7,604 nt of DNA from an uncultured Pseudoxanthomonas sp. (GTDB lineage: Bacteria; Pseudomonadota; Gammaproteobacteria; Xanthomonadales; Xanthomonadaceae). The stretch is from the NCBI GenBank assembly GCA_946886405.1, contig CAMPIO010000133.1:1-7604 (forward strand), written 5' to 3'. The notes beneath the pieces were generated by a model that did not search any database, was not told the origin of the DNA, and saw nothing but the letters and a program-made list of their open reading frames with translations. Each line of letters starts with the position of its first letter. The stretch's first letter is position 1. Of the stretch, positions 3 through 5,055 are shown piece by piece. The position numbers were made by a program, and so were the translations under genes.

Positions 3-1151
3 TCAGCGCTGGTCGATCGGCACGAAGGCCAGGTCTTCCGGCCCCGTGTAATTGGCGCTCGGGCGGATGATCTTGCCATCGATGCGCTGCTCGATGACGT
101 GCGCGCTCCAGCCGCTGGTGCGGGCGATCACGAACAGCGGGGTGAACATCGCCGTCGGCACACCCATCATGTGATAGCTGACGGCGCTGAACCAGTCGAG
201 GTTCGGGAACATCTTCTTGATGTCCCACATCACCGATTCCAGGCGCTCGGCGATGTCGTACATCTTCATGCTCGACTGCTCGGCAGAAAGATCTTTCGCC
301 ACGTTCTTGATCACATCGTTGCGCGGGTCGCCGGTGGTGTAGACCGGATGGCCGAAGCCGATCACCACTTCCTTGCGCTCCACGCGCGCCTTGATGTCGG
401 CCTCCGCCTCATCCGGCGACTCGTAGCGCTTCTGCACTTCGAAGGCCACTTCGTTCGCGCCGCCGTGCTTCGGGCCGCGCAGCGCGCCGATGCCGCCGGC
501 GATGGCCGAATGCATGTCGCTGCCGGTGCCGGCGATCACGCGGCACGTGAAGGTCGACGCATTGAACTCGTGCTCGGCGTACAGGATCAGCGAGGTGTGC
601 ATCGCCCGCACCCAGCTGTCCTTCGGCTTCTCGCCGTGCAGCAGGTGCAGGAAGTGGCCGCCGATGGAGTCGTCGTCGGTCTCCACGTCGATCGCGCGAC
701 CGTTGTGGCTCCAGTGGTACCAGTACAGCAACATGGAACCCAGCGAGGCCATCAGCTTGTCGGCGATGTCGCGTGCGCCCGGGTGATTGTGGTCGTCCTT
801 CTCCGGCGACACGCAGCCCAGCACGGACACGCCGGTGCGCATGACGTCCATCGGGTGCGCCGACGGCGGGAGTTCCTCCAGCGCGGCCTTCACCGCGGCA
901 GGAATGCCGCGCAGCGATTTCAGCTTGGCCTTGTAACCGGCCAGCTCGGCGCGATTGGGCAGCTTGCCGTGCACCAGCAGGTAGGCGACTTCCTCGAACT
1001 CGCTGGTGGTGGCCAGGTCCAGGATGTCGTAACCACGATAGTGCAGGTCGTTGCCGGTACGGCCGACGGTGCACAGCGCAGTGTTGCCGGCGGCGGTGCC
1101 GGACAGGGCGACGGATTTCTTCGGTTTGAAGGGAACGGCAGCGTCTGACAT
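3..1151 (-). CDS. prpC: 2-methylcitrate synthase
   Basis: This enzyme condenses propionyl-CoA with oxaloacetate to 2-methylcitrate, the entry step of the cytosolic 2-methylcitrate cycle. The 382-residue protein is full length for PrpC. The N-terminal stretch with [20 protein letters not shown] (about 27-46) reads as PrpC rather than housekeeping GltA. Visible active-site residues of the citrate synthase superfamily are H194 (EHEFN), H229 (GPKHGG), H268 (GFGHP), R277 (GDPRN), D319 (NLDW), R344 (IARTSGW) and R363 (RPSANYTG). The ATG at 1149-1151 is preceded by a good Shine-Dalgarno, AAGAGGTG (1157-1164 on the complement). prpB lies 154 bp upstream in the same orientation, so the two are probably co-transcribed through the intervening repeat. 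The stop codon lies two bases from the left edge, so the next gene of the operon is not visible. Low-level citrate synthase activity is common in this family. Confidence 0.96.
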
Positions 1152-1156
1152 GTCAA

Positions 1157-1164
1157 CACCTCTT
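1157..1164 (-). promoter_or_regulatory. prpC ribosome binding site
   Basis: AAGAGGTG on the minus strand lies 5 nt before the prpC ATG, with about 7 nt between its AGAGG core and the start. It fixes the prpC start and shows that prpC has its own translation initiation site despite the upstream palindromic repeat. Confidence 0.7.
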
Positions 1165-1176
1165 GATGATGTAAAG

Positions 1177-1298
1177 CCCCTCTCCCACCGGGAGAGGGGT
1201 TGGGGTGAGGGTGCGGCGAAGTCCGCAGTGGTTCGGACATCACTGACTTCGCCGTACCCTCATCCGCCCTTCGGGCACTTTCTCCCAAAGGGAGAAGG
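1177..1298. repeat. Composite palindromic intergenic element (REP/BIME-like) between prpB and prpC
   Basis: Most of the prpB-prpC gap is nested inverted repeats. Hairpin A is a perfect 10-bp stem, CCCCTCTCCC/GGGAGAGGGG (1177-1186 and 1190-1199), with a 3-nt loop. The central part has 18-nt arms (1206-1223 and 1245-1262) that match with one difference, the core being CGGCGAAGTC/GACTTCGCCG. Small hairpin B is GCCC-TTC-GGGC (1266-1276). Hairpin C is TTCTCCC-AAA-GGGAGAA (1280-1286 and 1290-1296). The two outer flanks are also roughly reverse complements, so the whole is one large imperfect palindrome built from smaller ones. From general knowledge, similar CCCTCTCCC/GGGAGAGGG elements are scattered between genes in Xanthomonadaceae. 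It may stabilise or attenuate the prpBC message. None of the stems ends in a clear U-tract, so a strong terminator is not indicated. Confidence 0.85.
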
Positions 1299-1305
1299 AA
1301 TATGG

Positions 1306-2190
1306 CTACTTTTTGGCAGTGAAGAGCGCATCCAGCTTCTGCTCGAACGCGTGGTAACCGATGCGGTCGTACAGCTCCTCGCGGGTCTGCATGGTGTCGA
1401 CCACGTTCTGCTGATGGCCGTCGCGGCGGATCGCTTCGTACACGTTCTCGGCGGCCTTGTTCATCGCGCGGAACGCCGACAGTGGATACAGCTGGATCGC
1501 CACGCCGACCGAAGCGAGTTCGTCACGGGTGAACAGCGGCGTCTTGCCGAACTCGGTGATGTTGGCCAGCACCGGTACCTTCACCGCGTCGACGAAACGC
1601 TGGTAGGTGGGCAGGTCGTAGGCGGCTTCGGCAAAGATGCCGTCGGCGCCGGCCTCGACGCAGGCGATGGCGCGCTCGATGGCGGCGTCCACGCCTTCGA
1701 CCTGGATGGCATCGGTGCGCGCGATCAGGAAGAAGTCCGGATCGGTCTTCGCATCGGCGGCCGCCTTCACGCGGTCGACCATCTCGCCGGCGGACACGAT
1801 TTCCTTGCCGGGACGATGGCCGCAGCGCTTCGCGCCGACCTGGTCCTCGATGTGGCAGGCGGCGGCGCCGGCCTTGATCAGCGACTTCACGGTGCGCTCG
1901 ATGTTGAAGGCGCTGGGACCGAAGCCGGTGTCGATGTCGACCATCAGCGGCAGGTCACAGACATCGGTGATGCGGCGGACGTCGATCAACACGTCTTCCA
2001 GCGTGTTGATGCCCAGGTCGGGCAGGCCCAGCGATCCTGCGGCGACACCGCCGCCGGACAGGTAGATCGCCCGGTAGCCGGCGCGCTTGGCCAGCAACGC
2101 GTGGTTGGCGTTGATGGCGCCGATCACCTGCAGGGGCGATTCGGCGGCGAGCGCGGCGCGGAACTTCGCGCCGGCGGATGGGGTGCTCAT
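1306..2190 (-). CDS. prpB: Methylisocitrate lyase (2-methylisocitrate lyase)
   Basis: The enzyme cleaves (2S,3R)-2-methylisocitrate to pyruvate and succinate, the last step of the 2-methylcitrate cycle. The 294-residue protein has the length and TIM-barrel layout of PrpB in the isocitrate lyase/PEP mutase superfamily. The signature KRCGH lies at 121-125 with catalytic C123. SGGG (45-48) lies in the substrate loop, D85 and D87 (DIDTGFG) coordinate Mg2+, and E115/D116 (HIED) complete the acidic site. This numbering agrees with well-studied enterobacterial PrpB. The short loop and KRCGH context favour PrpB over the longer isocitrate lyase AceA. The start is well supported by GAGAGGAG located 8 nt upstream. 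It is the first gene of the leftward prp unit, divergent from the helix-turn-helix/citrate-synthase gene across 146 bp of regulatory DNA. Confidence 0.96.
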
Positions 2191-2198
2191 GCGATTGA

Positions 2199-2206
2199 CT
2201 CCTCTC
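2199..2206 (-). promoter_or_regulatory. prpB ribosome binding site
   Basis: GAGAGGAG on the minus strand, 8 nt before the prpB ATG, is a strong Shine-Dalgarno. It contrasts with the divergent gene on the other side, which has none. Confidence 0.75.
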
Positions 2207-2275
2207 GATCAGCGAGCGGACCCGGGGTTGGGGCCGGGTGCCGGAGGTGCGTGAAGGGTACGCCCCTCTTCGGGA

Positions 2276-2291
2276 CGCAAATCTGGCACCA
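2276..2291 (-). promoter_or_regulatory. Possible sigma-54-type promoter for prpBC
   Basis: On the minus strand, TGGTGCCAGATTTGCG has the GG-N10-GC spacing of a sigma-54 promoter (consensus TGGCAC-N5-TTGC). TGG and TTGC match exactly, and most of the intermediate purine/pyrimidine positions agree. The inferred transcription start near 2264 would give a leader of about 70 nt before prpB. In enterobacteria prpBCDE is driven by sigma-54 with the activator PrpR, which makes the match plausible, but no sigma-54 activator is encoded in this window. No convincing sigma-70 pair was seen for prpB. This may be a chance match. Confidence 0.3.
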
Positions 2292-2300
2292 TCCGCAGGG

Positions 2301-2327
2301 TTGATCAATCTTGATCGAACGAATCAA
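2301..2327. promoter_or_regulatory. Candidate operator: cluster of TTGAT/ATCAA half-sites
   Basis: An AT-rich island in GC-rich DNA contains TTGATC at 2301 and 2311, exactly 10 bp (one helical turn) apart, and ATCAA at 2304-2308 and 2323-2327. These combine into a perfect inverted repeat, GATCAA-TC-TTGATC (2303-2316), and a second spaced pair, TTGAT-N7-ATCAA (2311-2327). The cluster ends 9 bp before the start of the helix-turn-helix/citrate-synthase gene and lies upstream of prpB. Symmetric half-sites fit binding by a dimeric regulator. The natural candidate is the adjacent fusion protein, as an autoregulator and regulator of prpBC. The binding assignment is inference; the symmetry is directly visible. 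Confidence 0.5.
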
Positions 2328-2330
2328 TAT
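2301..2330 (+). promoter_or_regulatory. Possible leaderless promoter of the HTH/citrate-synthase gene
   Basis: TTGATC (2301-2306) and CAATAT (2325-2330), 18 bp apart, are a fair -35/-10 pair. The -10 ends only 6 bp before the ATG at 2337, so transcription would start at or next to the start codon. No Shine-Dalgarno is visible in the 15 bases before that ATG, which fits a leaderless message. The half-site palindrome overlaps the -35 and the spacer, where a MerR-like regulator would act. Confidence 0.35.
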
Positions 2331-2336
2331 TTCCGC

Positions 2337-3563
2337 ATGGCCGCCTCCACCGATCTCCTGTCTGCGCGCGAGACCTGCCACCTGCTCGGCATCAGCCAGG
2401 CCACGCTGTACGCCTACGTCAGCCGCGGCCTGCTGGAATCACGCCCCGGCAAGGACCATCGCAGCCGCCTGTACCTGCGACAGGATGTGGAACGCCTGGC
2501 CCAGCGCAAACAGGTGGGCCGCGGCGCGGCGCGCGGTGCGGCCCAGAGTCTGGATCGCGGCTTGCCGGTGCTGGAAACGCGTATCTCGCTGATCCGGCCT
2601 GATGGCCCCTACTACCGGGGCCGCTCGGCGATCGCGATGGTGCACGAGGGCGCGACGCTGGAAGACGTGGCACGACAACTGTGGGACGGCGGCACCGACG
2701 ATCCGTTCGCGACGCCCGCGTTGACGCAATGGCCTGCCGTCGTCGCGCCGCTCGCCGCAGACGCCTCGCTGCCGCCGCTGGAACGGGCCATGGCGACCAT
2801 TCCGCTGCTGGCGCTGGGGGTGCTGCACTCTTTCAGTTCGGCGCCCCGCGTACGCCACGAGATCGCGGCCGGGCTGCTGCGCCACAATGCGGCGCTGCTG
2901 GTGGCGAGACCACCGTCTGCCGCACCGGTGCATCGCGTGCTGGCGCAGGCGTGGCATCCCGATGACGACGGCTTCGCCGAACTGGTGCGTGCCGCCCTGG
3001 TGGTGTGTGCGGACCACGAACTCAACGTCTCCGCCTTCGCCGCCCGCGTAGTGGCCTCCACCGGCGCGCACCTGCATGCCACGGTGTGCAGCGGACTGGC
3101 GGCGTTGTCCGGACCGCGCCACGGCGGCGCGACCGCACGCGCCTATGCGTTGATCGCCGACGCGCGCGACGCGACCTCTCCCCGCGCCTTCATCGCACAA
3201 CGCTGGCAACGTGGCGACGACCTGCCGGGCTTCGGCCATGCGCTGTATCCGCAAGGCGACCCGCGCGGCGCGGAACTGCTGGCGCGCGCACGCGACCGGC
3301 ATGCCGGCACACGTGAAATGGCCGCGCTGGAAACCCTGATCGCCACCACCGAGGAGATCAGTGGACTGCGGCCGAACATCGACTTCATGCTCGCGGCGAT
3401 CTGCCACCTCAACCGACTGCCGGCAACGCCCGCGCTGGTGATGTTCGCGGCGGGGCGCCTTGCCGGCTGGCTGGCCCACGCACTGGAACAGCAGGCGCAG
3501 GGCGGCCTGATCCGCCCTCGCGCCCGCTACACCGGCATCACGCCACCGACGTCGCCTGCATGA
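2337..3563 (+). CDS. Helix-turn-helix/citrate-synthase fusion protein, candidate metabolite-responsive regulator
   Basis: This is a 408-residue two-domain protein. Residues about 6-58 form a MerR/excisionase-like helix-turn-helix with the pattern ARETCHLLGISQATLYAYV followed by SRGLLESR and a DVERL helix. A basic, Ala/Gly-rich linker (58-72) follows. Residues about 77-401 form a citrate-synthase domain. Conserved residues are YRG (93-95), H227 (DHELN), H262 (GPRHGG), H301 (GFGHA), R310 (GDPR), D349 (NIDF), R374 (GRLAGW) and R393 (RPRARYTG), which are the catalytic His/His/Asp and the substrate-binding Arg set. The HPMD element of the small domain is absent and that region is shorter than in PrpC. 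It is divergent from prpBC with a palindrome at its promoter, so a role as sensor/regulator of propionate metabolism is inferred. An active citrate or methylcitrate synthase is the alternative. I chose the ATG at 2337 because the helix-turn-helix begins right after it. In-frame TTG 2301 and GTG 2238 are less likely. Confidence 0.85.
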   Translation: MAASTDLLSARETCHLLGISQATLYAYVSRGLLESRPGKDHRSRLYLRQDVERLAQRKQVGRGAARGAAQSLDRGLPVLETRISLIRPDGPYYRGRSAIAMVHEGATLEDVARQLWDGGTDDPFATPALTQWPAVVAPLAADASLPPLERAMATIPLLALGVLHSFSSAPRVRHEIAAGLLRHNAALLVARPPSAAPVHRVLAQAWHPDDDGFAELVRAALVVCADHELNVSAFAARVVASTGAHLHATVCSGLAALSGPRHGGATARAYALIADARDATSPRAFIAQRWQRGDDLPGFGHALYPQGDPRGAELLARARDRHAGTREMAALETLIATTEEISGLRPNIDFMLAAICHLNRLPATPALVMFAAGRLAGWLAHALEQQAQGGLIRPRARYTGITPPTSPA

Positions 3564-3648
3564 CGCGCACGCACTGCGCCAGCCTGCGGATTTGACATCG
3601 ATGCCGCATGCGCCGACCCTGCCAACGACCGCTTCTGCTGCTGCCGTG

Positions 3649-5055
3649 ATGCGCCCCACCCTAGCCCTGTGCCTGCTGTTGACGATGATGACGCCCACCA
3701 CCATCGCCCGGAACACCGACATGCCACGTGCCGACGCGACAACGCTCGCGTCGACCGCGATGCCGCCGCCTCCCGCGTGGCTGTCCGATCTCGATGCGCT
3801 GTACGACCTGGAGCTGCGCGTCGCGGACCTGGAAGACCGCACGTTCAATGCGGAACACTGGTGGTCGGTCGCCACGCCATTGCTCGAGCGCGCACCCGGG
3901 TTCCGCGTCGAGGAGATCGGCCGCAGCGTCGAGGACCGTCCCCTGCGCCATGTGCGCTGGGGCGACGGCAAGATCCCCGTACTGCTGTGGTCGCAGATGC
4001 ACGGCGACGAGAGCACGGCGACGATGGCGCTGGCGGACCTGTTCCGCTTCCTTGGCGAGCATCCCGGCCATCCGCTGGTGAAGCAGTTGCGGGCGAACAC
4101 CACGCTGCATGTCTTCCCCATCGTCAATCCCGATGGCGCCGCGCGCTTCCAGCGCCGCAACGTGCAGGGCATCGACATCAACCGCGATGCGCGCATGTTG
4201 GCCACGCCGGAAGCGCGCACGCTGAAGGCACTGTACGACCGGGTGAAGCCGACCTACGGCTTCAACCTGCACGACCAGCGCGTGGGCTACCGTGCCGGCC
4301 ATTCCGACCGCGGCACCGCCATCGCCCTGCTGTCGCCGCCGTACAACCACGCCGCCGATGTCAACGACGTGCGCACGCGCGCCATCGAAGTGGCGGGCGT
4401 CGTCCGCGCCGCGCTGGAGCCGTATCTCGCCGGCCATATCGCGCGATGGGACGAGACCTTCGACCCGCGCGCGTTCGGCGACCTCACCACCCAGTGGGGC
4501 AGCAGCACCGTGCTGATCGAAGCCGGCGGCATCGAAGGCGACGTGCAGAAGCAGCACCTGCGCAAACTCTACTTCCTCGGCCTGGTGGCGGCGCTGGACA
4601 GCATCGCGACGGGCAGTCACCAGGGTGTATCGCCTGCGCTCTATCGCGAGCTGCCGGAGAATGGCGATGTGTGGCCGGACTTGCTGGTGCGCGGCGGCAC
4701 GCTGGCCGTGCCGGGCCGATCGCCGATGAAGGCCGACCTGCTGGTCAATTTCCGCAATCCGTTGATGGAGACCGACGGCGCGATCGCCGATGTCGGCGAC
4801 CTGGGCACGAAGAAGGCACGCCGCAGCATCGATGCACGCGGGCTGTTCATCGTGCCGATCCCGGGGCATACGGGCGAACGCACGATGATCGAAGCGAACG
4901 ACGACGGCGAGAACGATGAACCATCATCGCCACTGCCGCTCACGCCGGGCGCGAGCGCGCGTTTCGTGCTGAGCCGCGATCCGCAAGGCCGCGACGTGGT
5001 GTGGACGCTCGATGGCAGCGTGGACCCGGCGGCGCCGTTGCCTCCAAGGCGGTGA
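3649..5055 (+). CDS. M14-family zinc carboxypeptidase-like protein, probably exported
   Basis: This is a predicted metallopeptidase that would trim C-terminal residues from peptides or act on peptidoglycan-type substrates; the actual substrate is unknown. Numbered from the ATG at 3649 (468 residues), the M14 zinc site is visible as HGDE (H118, E121) and the third ligand H208 in FNLHDQ. Other M14 features are NPDG (160-163), INRDA (177-181) and the catalytic Glu E291 in IEAGG. The first 20 residues (Arg2, then a hydrophobic run, then TTIA) look like a signal peptide, implying export. About 140 residues after the peptidase domain resemble nothing I recognise and end in an acidic/Pro-rich stretch. 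An earlier ATG (3601) and a TTG (3592) are in frame, but the codons between have poor GC3, so 3649 is preferred; no start has a clear Shine-Dalgarno. It lies 85 bp after the HTH/citrate-synthase gene and may share its transcript, with no obvious functional link. Confidence 0.85.
   Translation: MRPTLALCLLLTMMTPTTIARNTDMPRADATTLASTAMPPPPAWLSDLDALYDLELRVADLEDRTFNAEHWWSVATPLLERAPGFRVEEIGRSVEDRPLRHVRWGDGKIPVLLWSQMHGDESTATMALADLFRFLGEHPGHPLVKQLRANTTLHVFPIVNPDGAARFQRRNVQGIDINRDARMLATPEARTLKALYDRVKPTYGFNLHDQRVGYRAGHSDRGTAIALLSPPYNHAADVNDVRTRAIEVAGVVRAALEPYLAGHIARWDETFDPRAFGDLTTQWGSSTVLIEAGGIEGDVQKQHLRKLYFLGLVAALDSIATGSHQGVSPALYRELPENGDVWPDLLVRGGTLAVPGRSPMKADLLVNFRNPLMETDGAIADVGDLGTKKARRSIDARGLFIVPIPGHTGERTMIEANDDGENDEPSSPLPLTPGASARFVLSRDPQGRDVVWTLDGSVDPAAPLPPRR

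Follow-up and report, generated by a model that had tools for sequence, protein, structure and literature searches.

Regulators of the methylcitrate cycle are, in the parts of the literature covered here, of the sigma-54, the GntR or the [4Fe4S]/CoA type (PMC9765439, PMC6765138). 2-Methylcitrate is reported as coactivator of the Fis-type PrpR, and according to the portion of the same source that was consulted all analysed Xanthomonadales use this Fis-type PrpR (PMC9765439). The clade of the locus described below does not fit that statement as worded in that portion of the source (PMC9765439). The window, i.e. the whole stretch of 7,604 nucleotides from an uncultured Pseudoxanthomonas sp. that was analysed, holds the following features.

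3..1151, minus strand: prpC, 2-methylcitrate synthase (NF009006, 721 bits, cut-off 550), proposed target downstream of prpB
1306..2190, minus strand: prpB, methylisocitrate lyase (TIGR02317, 416 bits, cut-off 354), proposed target
2280..2288, minus strand: putative extended -10 of prpB, TGC-CAGATT, 17 nt from the putative -35
2303..2308, minus strand: putative -35 box of prpB, TTGATC, read by eye from an alignment of 42 loci and overlapping the operator
2305..2327, plus strand: proposed operator TCAATCTTGATCGAACGAATCAA, conserved across relatives; within it the palindrome TTGAT-N7-ATCAA spans 2311-2327
2337..3563, plus strand: gene of a helix-turn-helix (HTH)-citrate synthase fusion, proposed regulator, with a 408-aa product and divergent from prpBC
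2355..2510, plus strand: HTH_17 domain, residues 7-58 (Pfam match)
2511..2555, plus strand: linker, residues 59-73, the gap separating the two Pfam matches, with pLDDT <50 at residues 71-77
2556..3521, plus strand: citrate-synthase (CS) fold, residues 74-395 (Pfam and fold), proposed dimer and ligand part

The initial annotation had read the gene as an HTH joined to a citrate synthase and divergent from prpBC, and this architecture was confirmed. The Pfam content of the fusion is HTH_17, MerR_1 and Citrate_synt and nothing else; it lies above the Pfam cut-off for the citrate synthase superfamily PF00285, which its fold also matches, and HTH_17 scores higher than MerR_1, the match to the latter being marginal (21.8 bits against a cut-off of 21.6). 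Of the NCBIfam models for citrate or methylcitrate synthase 21 matched and none reached its cut-off, the nearest being NF009005 for the CitA-type citrate synthase, and the database name of the protein is 'citrate synthase family protein'. Across 63 aligned fusions the HTH, with a mean column entropy of 1.38 bits, is about as conserved as the C-terminal part of the CS domain, with 1.40 bits. The HTH helix motif TLYAYVSRG is kept throughout, also beside unrelated target genes. An M14-family peptidase gene (3592-5055), likewise on the plus strand, starts 28 bp downstream of the fusion; L007-L010, L023 and L026 have a homologue following the fusion, and most other called loci do not. The gap between prpB and prpC (1152-1305) contains G+C-rich inverted repeats resembling an interspersed bacterial repeat element, and an Rfam scan of the whole window gave no match.

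Relatives were collected by a contig scan with a ten-row alignment, and the best 80 of 564 were kept. The close relatives (L007-L048, n = 42) were picked by similarity and are by the tree nearly all Lysobacterales, with two Nevskiaceae; the distant relatives are L049-L086 (n = 38). L039, the contig of which starts within the gene, does not enter the counts of linkage and of sites. By tblastn, 39 of the 41 close relatives with upstream DNA have prpB upstream of the fusion at a distance of 86-161 bp and in the opposite orientation, and in the remaining two, both Tahibacter, the fusion faces acnD followed by prpF (TIGR02333 and TIGR02334, above cut-off). Among 151 genomes sampled separately from the order, 13 full-length fusions (>430 bits) were detected, 12 of which lie 126-187 bp from a divergent prpB; the thirteenth (L108, in genome G049) faces acnD, and prpBC is located elsewhere in that genome. 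As a separate observation, the PrpB opposite the fusion in L016, L046 and L047 is 66-67% identical to that of the window and the adjoining PrpC 89-94%, a contrast suggestive of an in situ replacement of prpB.

The fusion was also claimed to stand where PrpR normally does, and this was upheld: the two regulators occupy the same position beside prpB, the fusion in 12 and the sigma-54 PrpR in 10 of the 151 genomes, and never both. The PrpR_N domain was found in 11 genomes of this sample, 10 of which have it facing prpB, and in none of 38 fusion-bearing genomes searched (L015, L026, L039 and L042 being set aside). A PrpB-like match was present in 138 of the 151 genomes, and those of the 138 not counted above show neither regulator by these searches. 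A stricter rule, under which no genome would contain both PrpR_N and the fusion, proved wrong, as G068 has both; the exclusion holds at prpB. In G068 the PrpR_N protein is encoded at C1:2529502-2529972, away from prpB, and prpB faces the fusion. In the prp clade the fusion would stand in for the sigma-54 PrpR.

The upstream regions of the prp clade have in common TTGATCAATCTTGAT, followed by seven bases and ATCAA, and the same core is found in distant clades with a non-prp neighbour. Searched for as the 23-bp pattern TCAATnTTGA-N8-RTCAA, the exact site was present within 120 bp of the fusion start in 79 of 86 loci, rising to 82 with at most one mismatch and to 84 with at most two. The two loci beyond two mismatches are L006, where the same intergenic gap holds a one-mismatch copy in the reverse orientation, and L005, a Burkholderia plasmid record in which the fusion is the last of a four-gene run and an exact site stands at the head of the operon, between the genes of a D-glycerate dehydrogenase and an SDR. 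This copy in L005 is the one other exact copy in the 1.25 Mb. None of 1720 single-base shuffles contained the site, even at up to two mismatches, and it was exact at just one of 984 other gene starts. Each of 13 fusion-bearing genomes has a single exact site, by its coordinates always next to the fusion, and together they have four one-mismatch sites away from it. The 10 genomes with the PrpR type have no exact site and one with a single mismatch, off the prpB contig; the 30 other fusion-less genomes of the order have one exact site, likewise off the prpB contig of its genome, and many one-mismatch sites, mostly in a few genomes. It was considered whether the prpBC located elsewhere in Tahibacter also carries the site, and none was found at up to one mismatch, the site being present beside the fusion only, so that a prpBC placed elsewhere, as in G049, is left without one. 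The same site recurs in relatives that face genes for CitA-type citrate synthase, CoA-transferase and others.

The wider distribution was examined in a phylum sample of 299 genomes, of which at least 38 have a fusion at E 1e-60 or better when up to six candidates are scored per genome. The divergent neighbour of these 38 fusions is a CitA-type citrate synthase in 25, PrpB in four, AcnD in one, a family-III CoA-transferase in one, a homologue of 2-hydroxyacid dehydrogenase in one (with a short called ORF between) and another gene in six, namely TctC (G205), cation efflux (three), MipA (one) and one without Pfam match. Among the 38 distant loci L049-L086, 30 face a CS-like gene and seven a family-III CoA-transferase, five of the latter assigned by Pfam and two (L055, L062) by place and length, with L083 unassigned. 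For the initial expectation that homologues would not be located at random relative to prp genes the outcome was divided: all 41 close relatives with upstream DNA face prp genes, and in the phylum sample 5 of 38 do so, against 25 facing the CitA-type enzyme. The placement of the phylum-sample fusions is nevertheless not random, because in 30 of the 38 the exact site is again found within 120 bp upstream and in the same orientation. Of the eight lacking it, G436 and G440 have one mismatch and G205 has, by eye, a spacer one base shorter; no near-match was found for the other five, which all fall among the six with 'other' neighbours. The fusions L139, L140 and L143 (G302, G473 and G330) stand opposite a cation-efflux gene without the conserved site, and perhaps represent a branch that reads a different DNA code or has a different target.

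Away from fusions, the phylum sample holds 38 exact sites in 36 genomes, 34 of which have no detected fusion, and several of these (e.g. in G281, G424, G222 and G476) closely resemble true sites. That such stray sites arise by mere chance was not borne out, since the reversed pattern gave 9 matches in the same 299 genomes, a control that is imperfectly matched as the real pattern is partly palindromic. Those in fusion-less genomes may serve another protein or more remote relatives of the fusion, and with exact sites present where no fusion lies nearby, finding the site is by itself no proof of the fusion protein.

The fusion has the marks of a local (one-operon) transcription factor as far as these can be read from DNA, i.e. 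a DNA-binding domain, a conserved site at its own putative promoter and that of its neighbour and few sites per genome, and is very probably a sequence-specific local regulator. The best explanation overall, to which we give a probability of about 0.75, is that it would be a one-component transcription factor using a repurposed citrate synthase as sensor and controlling itself and prpBC. The CS half would form a homodimer and use the former active site to bind a ligand resembling oxaloacetate or (methyl)citrate, and the pair of N-terminal HTH domains would read the palindrome TTGAT-N7-ATCAA. The initial annotation as a possible sensor-regulator of the 2-methylcitrate pathway is supported by comparative evidence, namely the prp linkage in 41 of 41 close relatives, the exchange with PrpR and the conserved site at the prpB promoter region and the fusion's own start.

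The direction of control is less clear-cut. In the 42 prp-clade loci a second conserved block, AATcTGGCACC, stands at a fixed distance from the site and on the minus strand would be the extended -10 of prpB, which puts the centre of the palindrome near -46 of the predicted prpB start. The end of the site is most often 9 nt before the start codon of the fusion (15 of 42 prp-clade rows and 14 of 42 others), so its own promoter probably overlaps the site and its mRNA may be leaderless. Self-repression together with control of prpBC is suggested because the site overlaps both the putative prpB -35 and the fusion's likely core promoter just before the start codon, and this layout fits either activation or repression of prpB. 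A scan of positions 1100-3700 for consensus promoters and terminators found none, and a sigma-54 promoter with TGGCAC (2284-2289) as its -24 box was rejected by eye, there being no -12 element at the right spacing and its direction being towards the fusion. Between activator and repressor the choice is near even, with a ligand-gated activator of prpBC slightly likelier. The same regulator and site would, somewhat short of even odds, instead repress prpBC until 2-methylcitrate or oxaloacetate lifts the repression; the overlap with the putative -35 box speaks for this, as does the GntR-type PrpR of Pseudomonas aeruginosa, which the portion of PMC9765439 consulted describes as a repressor, but the palindrome proper appears to lie upstream of the -35, near -46 and thus in the usual place of an activator, and the putative prpB hexamers are poor.

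H227, H262, H301, R310, D349, R374, R393 and R395 are invariant in all 63 fusions, and the first seven are presumably, by equivalence with pig citrate synthase, the oxaloacetate/citrate contacts and catalytic residues. R395 is replaced by Ser in the PrpC of the window and by Gln in the partner CS of Agrobacterium. The CS part folds as PrpC does, with the large domain shortened (118 residues from E109 to H227 versus 141 in PrpC and 130 in the Agrobacterium partner), and P305 is present in 59 of 63 fusions where partner enzymes have Arg or Lys and the PrpC of the window has Thr. This is read as an acid pocket that is retained and a CoA side that is altered, which would make a tricarboxylate, for instance 2-methylcitrate, the likely ligand. 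Such a ligand is in keeping with the site-bearing target in G205, TctC, which is a receptor for tricarboxylate uptake, and the coactivator role of 2-methylcitrate with PrpR would suit a CS pocket. The ligand is likely to be (methyl)citrate or oxaloacetate, with about an even chance that it is 2-methylcitrate itself. The CitA-type enzymes opposite fusions have Glu (NVEF or NVEY) at the expected catalytic Asp in all 30 examined (L001, L002 and 28 of L049-L086), unlike the fusions, which retain this Asp in 63 of 63.

Since all catalytic residues are retained, the fusion may still have an enzyme role, and it is conceivable, if unlikely, that it makes citrate or 2-methylcitrate as well as binding DNA, its own turnover setting the regulatory state. 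The invariance of the His-His-Asp equivalents in 63 of 63 fusions and the PrpC-like fold would agree with such a trigger enzyme, but the neighbouring gene already provides PrpC, the large domain is shorter and position 305 is mostly Pro, as against Arg or Lys in the paired enzymes, although it is Thr in the PrpC of the window. Ligand binding alone could moreover preserve the invariant residues, because these double as ligand contacts. That the gene encodes a plain citrate synthase isoenzyme, with the HTH as a remnant and the site belonging to another regulator, agrees with the database name and with the exact sites in 34 genomes without detected fusion but is highly improbable given an HTH conserved as much as the CS core, a site that tracks the fusion (79 of 86 loci; a single exact site in 13 of 13 genomes) and is at prpB in none of the 10 PrpR-type genomes, and a score under every NCBIfam CS cut-off.

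In a tree of 93 fusions and three enzyme outgroups made with a quick method, the 37 prp-labelled rows, including P0063, P0103, P0117 and P0031 labelled prp by assumption, form one group (SH-aLRT 99), and the seven labels require 8 changes on the tree against a mean of 43 when shuffled. The commonest divergent partner being the CitA-type citrate synthase, the simplest history would have the family arise beside this enzyme and later take over other operons, that of prp a single time. The prp branch is best read as one clade of a wider family of local, self-controlling transcription factors that would sense a (methyl)citrate-like ligand. We lean towards the fuller account in which the family was born by a citrate synthase gaining an HTH, kept its oxaloacetate/citrate pocket as sensor and its DNA code TTGAT-N7-ATCAA beside the target -35, acquired as targets genes for citrate synthase, CoA-transferase, tricarboxylate uptake and the methylcitrate and hydroxyacid functions, and replaced the sigma-54 PrpR at prpB in one gammaproteobacterial clade.

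The abstract of Suvorova et al. 2012 reportedly mentions four new transcription factors. In the portions of the literature covered, no description of a citrate-synthase/HTH regulator was found, and an earlier prediction in Suvorova et al. 2012 is possible; for the name PrpQ only unrelated abbreviations were among the matches listed. If true, our reading would add a methylcitrate-cycle regulator with the fold of a central-metabolism enzyme as sensor and a directly testable binding site, assign a role to many proteins that databases list as 'citrate synthase family protein' and provide a clear case of an enzyme turned transcription factor, in many instances still encoded opposite a member of the enzyme family from which it came. 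A protein that responds to citrate or methylcitrate and has just one exact site in the genome could also be used as a biosensor.

The MerR family usually combines its DNA-binding domain with a coiled coil and a small effector domain. With HTH_17 and a marginal MerR_1 match the fusion may be akin to this family, and differs from it in using a citrate-synthase fold for sensing and probably for dimer formation. The CitA-type citrate synthase (NF009005), nearest NCBIfam model and commonest divergent partner (25 of 38), differs in lacking an HTH and at the catalytic Asp, which is replaced by Glu in all 30 partners examined and kept in all 63 fusions. The GntR-type PrpR of P. aeruginosa is, in the part of PMC9765439 covered, also a local regulator of methylcitrate genes with a palindromic site; it has other HTH and sensor families, the fusion having no GntR HTH match, and its own site is given there as ATTGTCGACAAT. 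The PrpR/IsaR group of M. tuberculosis is likewise one-component and reads a metabolite of the propionate pathway, but as described in the portion of PMC6765138 consulted has a [4Fe4S] cluster and CoA or acyl-CoA as ligands; the fusion has no match of that kind. The sigma-54 PrpR (Fis/NtrC type, PrpR_N PF06506) occupies the same place, divergent from prpB in 10 genomes, and presumably does the same job; the fusion differs from it in having neither PrpR_N nor a sigma-54 AAA domain and in a site that adjoins a putative sigma-70-like promoter.
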